A stretch of 64,000 nucleotides of DNA from Halanaerobiales bacterium (GTDB lineage: Bacteria; Bacillota; Halanaerobiia; Halanaerobiales; Halanaerobiaceae), in contig JADQBT010000002.1 of the NCBI GenBank assembly GCA_016278485.1, positions 1-64,000 on the forward strand, given 5' to 3'. The notes beneath the pieces are model-generated. The model was given only the letters and a program-made list of their open reading frames with translations, was not told where the DNA came from and did no database searches. The position numbers and the translations under genes are program-made. Below, in pieces: positions 11,608-22,164 of the stretch. Each line of letters starts with the position of its first letter. The stretch's first letter is position 1.

Positions 11608-11656
11608 ATAAATCGTAATCAGTAGGTTGTCCGTTCGAGTCCCATCACCAGCTCCA
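11608..11656 (+). pseudogene. 3' half of a tRNA-Thr(CGT), probable integration scar
   Basis: AATCGTAATCAGTAGGTTG followed by TCCGTTCGAGTC and CACCAGCTCCA reproduces the anticodon loop (CGT), variable loop, T-loop and CCA end of a threonine tRNA. The D-arm and 5' acceptor strand are absent. The T-stem no longer pairs (GTCCG against CCCAT), so it cannot be functional. Such 3' tRNA halves are typical attachment-site duplicates left by integrases. The rest of 11458-11843 shows no gene apart from the terminator below and an A/T-rich promoter region. Confidence 0.65.
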
Positions 11657-11696: not shown

Positions 11697-11843
11697 ATTT
11701 TTCTTGCAGATGAGGCAGGAATTTAAGAATTCATATCTAAATTAATGTTTAAGGTTAATGTAAAACTAATTTAAGTAGATATTATTATTTTAAAAAAATG
11801 GATTATAGTGTATAATAAATAGCAGAGGAGGAATTATTACCCA

Positions 11844-14456
11844 ATGCATAATTTTACTCAGTTTGTTAATCCACATTTAGGTGAACTATTTGCAGATATT
11901 AAACTTGACAAAGAGTACATAAAAGGAGAAGAATGTTATTTATATGATAGTGAGAATAACAAATATCTTGATTGTATAGCTAACTATGGTGCTGTCCCCT
12001 TTGGTTACAATCCGAAAGAAATTTGGGATTGCATAATGGAAGTTAAAGATTCAGGAGAGCCATCTCTGGTTCAGCCATCATCACTTAAAGCAGCTGGTGA
12101 ATTAGCCGAACGGTTAATAGAACTTGCACCAGGAGACTTACAGTATGTTACTTTTAGTAATAGTGGAACAGAATCTGTCGAAGCTGCCATAAAATTATGT
12201 CGATCTGCAACAGGTCGTAAAGGAATTTTAACAACTAAAAATAGTTTTCATGGGAAAACCTTGGGTTCTTTATCTGCCACTGGCAACCCTGACTATCAAG
12301 CAGATTTTTATGCTCCAGTAGAAGGGTTTTCAGCTATTGAATATGGTAATTTAGAAGCTTTAGAAAAAGAATTAAAAGAAAAACCAAATTTTTATGCAGC
12401 ATTTATTTTAGAACCAATTCAGGGAGAAGGTGGAATTGTAGTTCCTCCGGAAGGTTATTTGAAAAATGCCAAAAAAATCTGTCATGAATATGGTGTATTA
12501 TTTGTGCTAGATGAAGTGCAGACTGGTTTAGGGCGCACTGGTTCATTATTTGCCTGTGAGCATGAAGATCTAGATCCAGATGTTTTGCTCTTAGCTAAAG
12601 CTTTAGGGGGAGGAATAATTCCGATTGGTGCATGTCTGAGTACAGAAGAAGTATATAATGAAAAGTTTGCCAATAAACACTCTTCCACCTTTGCCGGGAA
12701 TACTCTAGCCTGTAGAATTGGTAAGAAAGTCCTTGATATTTTAGATAGAGATAATCAGCATCTTATCAAACAGGTCAAAACAAATGGTAAGGAATTTAAA
12801 GCGAGATTAGAGAATTTACATGAAAAATATCCAAATCTAATCAAATCAATCCGTGGTAAAGGTTATATGTTGGGTATTGAATTTAATATTACTAAAGATA
12901 CTTTTCCAGGGAGCTTGTTGGGAGTGATGGCTGAACAGGAATTATTAACACCAATATTATCTAGCTATTTATTAAACAAAGAGAAGATAAGAGTTGCTCC
13001 TACTTTAAATGGTAATAATGTAATCAGAATTGAACCACCATTATGTTTGACACGTAAACAAACTATTGCTGCGGTCAATGGGATTGAGAATATGTTAGAA
13101 GTATTAGATAAAGGCAATACTGCTAAGTTAATAGCATATCTAATTGATGCTGATGATGACCGAGAATATCCTGCATATAAGAATGATTTTCTTAATGATG
13201 CCAAAGCTAATCCAAAAAGTGATGAAGGTAGATTTGCATTTTTGGTACATCCGCTTGATATTAATAATTATCCCGAATTTGACAGTAGCCTAGAAGTCTT
13301 TAGTGAAAAAGAACTGAAAAATTTAACAGGACGTTGGAATAATCTTGTCGAACCTTTTGTTGCTGGACAAACAAGGATAAAAGCTAAAAGCGGGAAAGAA
13401 GTTTATGGAGAATTTATAGCAATTCCTCATACTACAGAAGAATTATTAGAGATGACTAAGGATAAATCCTTAGACCAGGTGAAAAAAGCAATTAAACTTG
13501 CTAAAGAGAGGGGCGCAAAAATAGTAGGTCTTGGTGCTTATACATCAGTTGTCACCATGGGCGGACTTTACATACGCAATCATGAAATGCCTATTACAAC
13601 AGGTAATAGTTATACTGTAGTTGCTGCAGTTGATGCAGTATTAAACGCTCTTACACGTCTTAATATTTCACTTGAGAATTCTATTGCTGCTATAGTTGGT
13701 GCTACTGGCTCTATTGGTAAAGGTACTGCTGTCTTAATGTCACAATATGTATCACAATTAATATTGCTAGGAAATCCTGATAATAGTGTATCAAGTAGAA
13801 AAAGATTAACCAGAATAGCTGGTGAGATTTATCAATTTATTGCAAATCAACTAGCTAATGGTGTTCAGTTTAATCCTGGAAGTATAGGAGATAAGGTAAA
13901 GCAATTTTTACATTTTCCCTCGTCAGATGCTGATTTAAATGAATTTATTGAATTTGCGAGTGAATTATTAGATACTGATCCATATAAAAATCCAATTGCT
14001 ATCTCAACTCAGATTGAAGAAATGTTACCAAGAGCAGATGTTACGATTAGTGCTACAAATAATATTTCGAAATTTATCACTCCAGATATTTTAAAACACG
14101 GTGCAGTTGTCTGTGATATTTCACGTCCTAAAAATGTAAGCGAAGAAGTAGCGCAGCAGCGACCTGATGTATTAATGATAGATGGTGGAATCATAGAGGT
14201 GCCCGGAAAACCTTCTATGGGGTGGAACTTTGGTTTTAAAAAAGGACTTGTCTATGCCTGTATGGCAGAAACCATGCTACTTGCGCTGGATCATCATTAC
14301 CAGAACACCAGTATTGGTTCTTCTGGAGTAAATTTAGATAGTATTTTATTTACCAGAAATTTAGCGGAAAAGCATGGATTTAGATTAGCTGAGTTAAGAA
14401 GTTTTGATAGACCATTGAGTGAAAGCAAATGGGAAAAGATAATCCAGGCAATCTAA
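11844..14456 (+). CDS. Fusion: class III aminotransferase + acyl-ACP-reductase-like domain
   Basis: The 870-residue protein has two enzymes. Residues 1-425 form a class III PLP aminotransferase of the acetylornithine/putrescine type: NSGTESVEAAIKL, SFHGKTLGSLSATG, EPIQGEGG, LDEVQTGLGRTG, and Schiff-base Lys252 in LLAKALGGG. Residues about 455-870 resemble cyanobacterial aldehyde-forming acyl-ACP reductase: GLGAYTSVVT, TTGNSYT, Rossmann motif GATGSIG (619-625), and Cys806 in YACMAETMLL, aligning with the nucleophilic cysteine of that enzyme (FACFAEAMLL). Reduction of an acyl thioester to an aldehyde followed by transamination to an amine is a natural reading, but is inference. AGAGGAGG precedes the ATG. 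A terminator follows, so it acts alone. Confidence 0.85.
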   Translation: MHNFTQFVNPHLGELFADIKLDKEYIKGEECYLYDSENNKYLDCIANYGAVPFGYNPKEIWDCIMEVKDSGEPSLVQPSSLKAAGELAERLIELAPGDLQYVTFSNSGTESVEAAIKLCRSATGRKGILTTKNSFHGKTLGSLSATGNPDYQADFYAPVEGFSAIEYGNLEALEKELKEKPNFYAAFILEPIQGEGGIVVPPEGYLKNAKKICHEYGVLFVLDEVQTGLGRTGSLFACEHEDLDPDVLLLAKALGGGIIPIGACLSTEEVYNEKFANKHSSTFAGNTLACRIGKKVLDILDRDNQHLIKQVKTNGKEFKARLENLHEKYPNLIKSIRGKGYMLGIEFNITKDTFPGSLLGVMAEQELLTPILSSYLLNKEKIRVAPTLNGNNVIRIEPPLCLTRKQTIAAVNGIENMLEVLDKGNTAKLIAYLIDADDDREYPAYKNDFLNDAKANPKSDEGRFAFLVHPLDINNYPEFDSSLEVFSEKELKNLTGRWNNLVEPFVAGQTRIKAKSGKEVYGEFIAIPHTTEELLEMTKDKSLDQVKKAIKLAKERGAKIVGLGAYTSVVTMGGLYIRNHEMPITTGNSYTVVAAVDAVLNALTRLNISLENSIAAIVGATGSIGKGTAVLMSQYVSQLILLGNPDNSVSSRKRLTRIAGEIYQFIANQLANGVQFNPGSIGDKVKQFLHFPSSDADLNEFIEFASELLDTDPYKNPIAISTQIEEMLPRADVTISATNNISKFITPDILKHGAVVCDISRPKNVSEEVAQQRPDVLMIDGGIIEVPGKPSMGWNFGFKKGLVYACMAETMLLALDHHYQNTSIGSSGVNLDSILFTRNLAEKHGFRLAELRSFDRPLSESKWEKIIQAI

Positions 14457-14464
14457 AGAAAAAA

Positions 14465-14502
14465 GGTTAGACTAAAGATATTTTAGTCTAACCTAATTTT
14501 TT
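14465..14502 (+). terminator. Terminator of the fusion gene
   Basis: GGTTAGACTAAA and TTTAGTCTAACC pair around a short loop, followed by TAATTTTTT. Confidence 0.85.
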
Positions 14503-14562: not shown

Positions 14563-15651
14563 CTAGGGTAATAATTTGCTAATTAATTTAAGATAATTGA
14601 ACTCTCCATTAAATACTTTTTGGCCAACCTTACCTTTTAATCCTTTGACCAGTATATCTAATTTTGCATTATCCAACTTTTCCAATGTTCTTCTTAAAGT
14701 TAAGGATTCATGATAACTGCTAACTAATTTACTTGTTAGTTCAGTATAGTCTCCTAATCCACAGATATCATGTGCTGCATAAATACCTGTCAATAATGAA
14801 GCAACCTGACCAAATCCTAAAAATGGCATAATAGAGCCAAAATTATTACCAACCAAAAAAGTATTGCCTATTCTCGGATATTTAGATTTACCAATTATAT
14901 ATCTTGTAACTTCAAAATCTCTTTTCATTTTAAAATTTTGTCCAATAATGACAGCTATTTCATCTAAAAAATTTTCCCAGAGTTTATTAATATCATATTT
15001 TTGATTTTCAGGATAATCAGGGTAAGCAATGACAATATTTGCTTTTTGCTGAGTGATCGGGATAAGGTAACTATAGCCCAGGGGAGCAAATTTGTGGTTT
15101 AACCAGGCTTCTACGGTATCAATATCAAAATTGCCATCTATAATAGCTCCCTTAAGCGTAACGGTTAGATCAACATCATATTCAGTAATTTTTGTAGCAT
15201 ATGTGGCATCGCCAGTTGCTAGTATAACATGTGAATATGCATGTAATAGTTCTTCATATGACTTCTGGGAATTAAAATGAATTTTACTATTTACTTGTTT
15301 TTCTAATTGTTTTTCAAATGAATTTTCAGCCCGGCCACGTAGGTTTGTAAAACCTAGATGACCAGTTATTTCAGCTGAGTTATTTTCAGAGTGTATAATT
15401 AGTTTTCTGATATTTGATTGTGGTTGTAAGAATATCTTGTGTTCTTCGGCAAAATACTTTATAGCATCATCTATTGGTTTAGAAAGAACTGATAATAATA
15501 GTTCGCAATTGAAAAATCTGTCACCAACCTGTGATCTCTTTTCATAAATGCTTGGGTTAATGCCGTTTTCTTCTAAAGTTATAGCCGCTGCTAAACCAGC
15601 CAGTCCAGCCCCCATAATAGCAACATTAATTTTTAGGACCTCCTTTTCCAT
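14563..15651 (-). CDS. FAD-dependent oxidoreductase, geranylgeranyl-reductase-like
   Basis: This is a 362-residue flavoprotein. The N-terminus holds the Rossmann FAD motif VAIMGAGLAGLAAAITLEENG followed by an acidic/basic strand end (IYEKRSQVGDR). ATGDATY and a late FLVGNNFGSIMPFLGFGQ resemble the second FAD contact of the geranylgeranyl reductase/PHBH superfamily. The substrate is unknown. It starts 6 bases after the gerKC stop. The ATG at 15651 has no ribosome-binding site of its own, whereas AAAAGGAGGT lies inside the first codons, 8 bases before an in-frame ATT at 15630; the true start could be that ATT or come from coupling to gerKC. Confidence 0.75.
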   Translation of the reverse strand: MEKEVLKINVAIMGAGLAGLAAAITLEENGINPSIYEKRSQVGDRFFNCELLLSVLSKPIDDAIKYFAEEHKIFLQPQSNIRKLIIHSENNSAEITGHLGFTNLRGRAENSFEKQLEKQVNSKIHFNSQKSYEELLHAYSHVILATGDATYATKITEYDVDLTVTLKGAIIDGNFDIDTVEAWLNHKFAPLGYSYLIPITQQKANIVIAYPDYPENQKYDINKLWENFLDEIAVIIGQNFKMKRDFEVTRYIIGKSKYPRIGNTFLVGNNFGSIMPFLGFGQVASLLTGIYAAHDICGLGDYTELTSKLVSSYHESLTLRRTLEKLDNAKLDILVKGLKGKVGQKVFNGEFNYLKLISKLLP

Positions 15652-22004: not shown

Positions 22005-22035
22005 AAATATAAATTTAAATAAAATAATCTATAAT

Positions 22036-22141
22036 ACTAACAAGGATGGGTGAAATTCCCTACCGGTGGTAAAGTCCACAAGCCTCAGGGTTGATCTGGT
22101 GTAATTCCAGAACCGACAGTACAGTCTGGAAGGGAGTTAGT
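22036..22141 (+). promoter_or_regulatory. FMN riboswitch (RFN element)
   Basis: The conserved core GGTGAAATTCCCTACCGGTG is followed by AGCCTCAGGG, an ATTCCAGAACCGACAGT segment and CTGGAAGGGAG. CTAAC (22037-22041) and GTTAG (22136-22140) close the P1 stem. FMN binding should favour the terminator just downstream and shut off ribDEBAH. Confidence 0.95.
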
Positions 22142-22164
22142 GATTTTTTGTTATTAGATATTAT

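Follow-up and report, generated by a model that had tools for sequence, protein, structure and literature searches.

Can one protein carry an acyl thioester through an aldehyde to a primary amine, and does it do so on its own? The question is raised by a gene on the plus strand at positions 11844..14456 of the 64-kb window (the whole stretch of DNA analysed here), an open reading frame with an ATG start that encodes an 870-residue fusion of a transaminase to a thioester reductase (TA-TR fusion). The gene is preceded by a TATAAT-like -10 element (11811-11816, plus strand, 10/12 match), from a promoter scan in which the count of promoter-like sites is not above shuffle expectation, and by a ribosome-binding site, AGAGGAGG (11824-11831, plus strand), graded good from its sequence. 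Downstream, a strong bidirectional intrinsic terminator hairpin (14464-14494; shuffle z -5.2) lies between the fusion gene and a convergent flavoprotein gene. Since there is no close co-directional neighbour, the original prediction that the gene stands alone with its own terminator is right locally. No acyl-activating enzyme or carrier protein adjoins the gene, which counts against the explanation that we favour below, and no dedicated ligase-ACP partner of the TamA kind was seen among the neighbours checked.

The adjoining flavoprotein (14563-15651, minus strand), which is geranylgeranyl-reductase-like, was considered as a pathway partner and not adopted, as it is shared with only one other fusion locus (L026, where it lies downstream with 36% identity) and has no match in L150. 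Upstream, an AbiGi-like gene (PF10899; 10768-11466, minus strand) was judged unrelated; beside it is a single-copy stretch that resembles the 3' end of a tRNA (11629-11656), and no tRNA gene was found within the window. Further downstream, an FMN riboswitch (RF00050, 105 bits; 22032-22145, plus strand) precedes apparent riboflavin synthesis genes.

Two predicted catalytic domains in one chain

The protein consists of an N-terminal class III transaminase, a variable linker and a C-terminal reductase domain resembling acyl-ACP reductase (AAR). The aminotransferase domain spans residues 26-417 (11919..13094, plus strand; Pfam PF00202, Aminotran_3, E 2e-90). Its Schiff-base lysine, Lys252 (12597..12599, plus strand), lies in the motif LAKALGGG, is invariant in an alignment of 41 fusions and falls on Lys300 of the Escherichia coli putrescine aminotransferase YgjG (residue number counted from the alignment). 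When the full-length model was compared with the PDB, the nearest solved structures for this half were the C-terminal domain of PigE and YgjG, both of which act on terminal amines or aldehydes. Membership in the putrescine aminotransferase family itself (NF008570) was not supported, with a score of 324.9 bits against a cut-off of 612.

The second domain, an AAR-like thioester reductase at residues 462-870 (13227..14453, plus strand), was delimited by phmmer, by the TIGR04058 profile and by structure modelling. In phmmer searches it matches the AAR entries 6jzq, 6jzu and 6jzz as well as the N-terminal half of the PigE structure 4ppm, with an E-value of 6e-13 for the AAR of Synechococcus elongatus (6jzq); against TIGR04058, the cyanobacterial AAR family, it obtains an E-value of 1.4e-24 at 87 bits, which is far below the family cut-off of 449.7 bits. 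The dinucleotide-binding loop is found as GATGSIG at residues 619-625 (13698..13718, plus strand), and among 53 reductase domains compared Gly619 is present in all, and Gly622 and Gly625 in 52. The predicted acyl-accepting nucleophile, Cys806 (14259..14261, plus strand), belongs to the motif YACMAETMLL, which starts at residue 804. In the sequence comparison it falls on Cys294 of AAR, a cysteine in 6jzq and a serine in 6jzz, and 52 of the 53 domains have a cysteine at this position. AAR Cys294 carries the acyl-enzyme, and in 6jzz the C294S substitution served to hold stearoyl-CoA (PMC7089970).

Modelled alone (m075a5b39776e), the reductase domain reaches a pLDDT of 90.9 and a pTM of 0.90, and seven AAR chains rank first among its PDB matches (E 2e-20 to 5e-18; TM 0.76-0.79 by target length), followed by the TAD domain of the carmabin pathway. 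The domain thus combines an AAR fold with a cysteine at the Cys294 position, and the alignment and the fold match together place Cys806 in the predicted active site. The original prediction had described a class III PLP aminotransferase with Lys252 joined to a C-terminal domain with GATGSIG and a cysteine in YACMAETMLL that aligns with the AAR nucleophile; all of these elements were recovered, and the structural check proposed for the two halves led to PigE and YgjG for the transaminase and to AAR for the reductase.

Two further regions stand out. The linker between the domains (residues ~425-461; 13116..13226, plus strand) varies in length and sequence, differs more among the aligned fusions than any other part and has a lower pLDDT at residues 441-460 of the full-length AlphaFold2 model, which was built from 41 fusion sequences with a mean pLDDT of 89.6 and a pTM of 0.84. 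Between the glycine motif and Cys806, the fusions contain a specific insert of ~50 residues (13800..13931, plus strand, limits approximate), recognised from the spacing and from a gap in the profile matches of separate reductases, and missing both from these and from AAR. Accordingly, the glycine-to-cysteine spacing is 175-188 residues in most fusions and 133-136 in separate reductases; in the protein studied here, Lys252, Gly619 and Cys806 are spaced by 367 and 187 residues.

The fusion occurs in many genomes

Both halves are conserved as one intact protein in relatives, with 45-66% identity over the full length, so the fusion is not a chance event; an assembly artefact is likewise ruled out, as many genomes carry the intact fusion. 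Scanning genome contigs turned up at least 547 relatives of the reductase domain. Among the best 80 of these loci, 65 are complete fusions with both motifs and the transaminase first, in answer to the call in the original prediction for a search for the same domain order. The fusions among these best 80 loci are found mainly in Syntrophomonadaceae, Dethiobacter, Peptococcaceae and Halanaerobiales, mostly in Bacillota; others come from Pseudomonas, Myxococcales and Chloroflexota. A tree of 53 reductase domains groups all 40 TA-TR fusions in a single clade (support 100/97) apart from the separate reductases and from a PigE homologue, the latter being a long branch of unsure placement.

In Pseudomonas (L096-L100), the fusion is clustered with a fatty-acyl-AMP ligase, a fatty acid desaturase and export-type genes, in what looks like a pathway for an unsaturated fatty amine. 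A Leisingera plasmid (NZ_CP035421.1) encodes a 1395-residue triple fusion of transaminase, reductase and adenylation domains (L180:7959-12146), in a cluster with another adenylate-forming enzyme, pabB, a 4-hydroxybenzoate 3-monooxygenase, an MMPL transporter and an outer membrane lipoprotein-sorting protein. The Pseudomonas and Leisingera fusions sit in biosynthetic-looking clusters with adenylate-forming enzymes. One otherwise intact fusion has an in-frame TAG near the end of the transaminase domain (L008:2713-2715; D*EID where relatives have DEEID), which may be a point mutation, a sequencing error or a suppressed stop.

A pair of separate genes and a third protein

We surveyed 59 genomes of the window's class (anaerobic Bacillota, the near relatives being labelled Halanaerobiales). 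Nine carry the fusion, each with a single reductase match, 27 carry a separate reductase and 23 have neither. A separate transaminase of a related subfamily, assigned by score and alignment start, accompanies the separate reductase in 25 of the 27 genomes; of the remaining two, one genome is 72% complete and the other has only a reductase fragment. This transaminase was found without a reductase in none of the 59. The fusion joins in one chain a reductase and a transaminase that many relatives encode by two genes.

A third protein shares the distribution of this pair. Designated c3 and 305 residues long, it occurs in exactly the 36 of 59 genomes that have a reductase, fused or separate, and is absent from the other 23 (examples are G000:C15:2701-3609 in L152, L132:6122-7036 and L054:3583-4506). 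In a wider sample of 200 genomes of the phylum, it is found in 127 of 130 reductase-positive genomes and in 25 of the 70 others, counts that are not phylogenetically independent; as c3 does occur without the reductase in these 25, it is not strictly bound to it. The p-values computed for the co-occurrence take no account of common descent and are descriptive only. The c3 family has no match in Pfam, NCBIfam or among solved structures. It was also considered as a distant copy of the reductase and rejected, the profile comparison giving a probability of 0.2% and no solved relative; a search of viral contigs yielded no further c3 sequences.

The separate reductase is encoded in a conserved operon of the order coaX-dusB-HTH regulator (in some)-c3-reductase-greA-lysS, where the gene names other than c3 are read from the sequences. 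The fusion can take the reductase's place in it: in L054 the order is dusB-regulator-c3-fusion-lysS, in L045 the fusion follows the regulator and c3, and 12 of the loci retrieved have the regulator upstream of the fusion. In the window's genome, coaX-dusB-c3-greA-lysS is kept with the reductase slot empty, and the sole reductase found is the reductase half of the fusion. A locus with the fusion in the operon (L174, genome G247) holds fusion, c3 and a separate reductase together, and there the separate enzyme (L174:8842-9918) no longer has the catalytic cysteine (GMAEVM). These arrangements are most simply explained if the fused reductase stands in for the separate enzyme within a common pathway, and the fusion probably works in one pathway with c3. 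The suggestion in the original prediction that a single protein may contain the whole chemistry is therefore doubtful as far as the pathway is concerned, because c3 co-occurs exactly with the reductase in the class and shares its operon in relatives.

Two observations on the two-gene genomes may be added. In L137, L144, L146 and L148, an SRPBCC/lipid-transport-like protein (Polyketide_cyc) is encoded beside or near the separate transaminase. In another genome of the class (G041), homologues of PigD and PigE are encoded side by side (L143:4601-9615) with an MMPL-type transporter nearby, and from their sequences would make up a MAP module of the prodigiosin type, which is unexpected in this group; the PigE homologue scores 1349 bits, above the family cut-off, and the PigD homologue 676 bits, below its own. 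The same genome also carries both separate genes, reductase and transaminase.

Proposed reaction and alternatives

We consider it probable that the protein is a bifunctional enzyme of the TamH type, which would convert an acyl thioester through an aldehyde to a primary amine, would likely draw on the cell's ACP pool and would belong to a pathway linked to c3. Cys806 would take over the acyl group from a phosphopantetheine thioester, NAD(P)H bound at GATGSIG would reduce the acyl-enzyme to a free aldehyde, and the N-terminal PLP domain would transaminate this aldehyde through Lys252, with glutamate as the probable amino donor. The mechanism is well supported by homology: this part of the original prediction, the two-step reaction in one chain, draws support from the structural matches, from the conservation of Lys252 and Cys806, from the co-occurrence of the separate genes and from the TamH of Pseudoalteromonas tunicata, PtTamH (PMC9594044). 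Substrate, cofactor choice, direction, product and the role of c3 we infer. Points that weigh against this reading are the scores under the AAR and PigE family cut-offs and the presence of c3 in reductase-free genomes of the phylum. The acyl donor would come from ordinary fatty acid synthesis as an acyl-ACP, or be an acyl-CoA, with no dedicated assembly line. The genome revealed one PP-binding protein, encoded 13 kb outside the window, and thus no sign of an assembly line or of a dedicated carrier; with a single carrier protein, and by analogy to TamH and AAR, acyl-ACP from fatty acid synthesis is the likeliest substrate.

Three other readings were weighed. The enzyme could run in reverse, with the transaminase deaminating a terminal amine and the second domain oxidising the aldehyde onto CoA or ACP; in principle either reaction can run backwards, and the nearest single-function transaminase, YgjG, is catabolic. 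We regard this as unlikely, given that the homologues TamH and PigE run biosynthetically (PMC9594044, PMC8341465), that AAR-type reductases are acyl-reducing, and that the locus of the separate reductase genes is a housekeeping one, with no genes for amine uptake or fatty acid degradation beside them. That the two domains serve unrelated substrates and were joined accidentally or only for co-expression is a reading to which we give little credence: the two genes are indeed unlinked on the chromosome in the two-gene relatives examined, but a separate transaminase is present in 25 of the 27 genomes with a separate reductase and in no surveyed genome that lacks the reductase, the fusions keep a constant order within a single clade, and TamH performs both steps on one substrate (PMC9594044).

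A conversion of a 3-acetyl-acyl thioester to a pyrroline or pyrrole, as by PigE, appears very improbable to us. PigE is the best curated match to the whole protein (NCBIfam NF053554, 549.5 bits in three stretches) as well as the nearest solved structure, and G041 shows that a relative can carry PigD and PigE homologues. However, the score stays below the 850-bit cut-off, the reductase-before-transaminase order of the family is reversed here, and G041 has its PigE homologue on top of a separate reductase and a separate transaminase; a PigD match was not seen in the window's genome either, a weak point because the control queries were equally silent.

Of greater interest than the enzyme itself is the conserved set of c3, reductase and transaminase, which in anaerobic Bacillota is a common and co-inherited feature without an antibiotic cluster. 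In the papers searched, we found no activity, substrate or product for members outside the prodiginine and tambjamine pathways, and no description of a comparable clostridial pathway to amines or aldehydes. One possibility, which we put forward tentatively, is that these bacteria share a widespread pathway in which c3, acyl-ACP reductase and transaminase would turn part of the acyl-ACP pool of fatty acid synthesis into a long-chain primary amine, or a lipid built from such an amine, as an ordinary constituent of the cell, and that TamH was recruited from this pathway. To our knowledge, fatty amines are not recognised as ordinary bacterial metabolites. The kind of enzyme is known and thinly studied, and as it takes acyl thioesters to amines it is useful as a biocatalyst, with hundreds of relatives to sample.

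Comparison with known systems

Four systems besides TamH invite comparison. Cyanobacterial AAR (6jzq, 6jzy, 6jzz; PMC7089970) shares the fold, the dinucleotide loop and the catalytic cysteine of the reductase half, whereas it is a separate protein paired with an aldehyde deformylating oxygenase, lacks the ~50-residue insert and has 19% identity in the structural alignment. The carmabin-pathway TAD (9e4s, 9e4u, 9e50, 9e56), the next-best structural match, belongs to a natural-product pathway and reaches a TM of ~0.63-0.68 to the reductase half; according to the PDB titles it binds NAD(H) and has a cysteine that forms a disulfide with dephospho-CoA, and a literature search found no paper on these structures. 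PigE (PDB 4ppm), from prodigiosin biosynthesis in Serratia, unites the same activities in one chain with the domains swapped; its substrate is a 3-acetyl-acyl thioester that PigD supplies (PMC8341465). The fourth is the separate pair of anaerobic Bacillota, a reductase of ~360 and a transaminase of ~420-470 residues with ~33-35% and 39-44% identity to the respective halves of the fusion. The pair has the same regulator and c3 as neighbours as some fusions do, and differs from them in being two unlinked genes with a reductase that lacks the insert; as far as we found, it is uncharacterised.

PtTamH itself, from the tambjamine YP1 pathway, is a 941-residue protein with an N-terminal transaminase and a C-terminal thioester reductase, whose chemistry was shown in 2022 (PMC9594044). 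It converts a C12 aldehyde to the C12 amine with glutamate, and C12-ACP on TamA to the same amine with NADH and glutamate, the aldehyde being seen when glutamate is omitted; free C12-CoA is not accepted (PMC9594044). Likened by its published description and numbers, it shares with the window's fusion the order of a class III transaminase and an AAR-like reductase in one chain, a linker of similar size, the PLP lysine, the GxxGxxG loop and the catalytic cysteine. The published positions Lys340, Gly707 and Cys887 give spacings of 367 and 180 residues (PMC9594044), the first identical to that found here and the second similarly long. As the long glycine-to-cysteine spacing is found in the fusions and in TamH, the ~50 extra residues are a mark of TA-TR fusions, one that would extend to TamH on the evidence of these numbers. 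The difference lies in the setting: TamH is part of an antibiotic cluster with TamA, a ligase-ACP fusion, and is reported to need NADH and acyl-ACP, whereas the window's fusion has no cluster and a single ACP in its genome. A TamA partner is a hallmark of the tam pathway and not of the enzyme family, and we place the 870-residue enzyme among the TamH-type fusions as a new member. Neither the fusion nor its chemistry is new, because PigE and TamH were characterised in 2021-2022; what is new here is the context, a reductase/transaminase and c3 set outside any antibiotic cluster.
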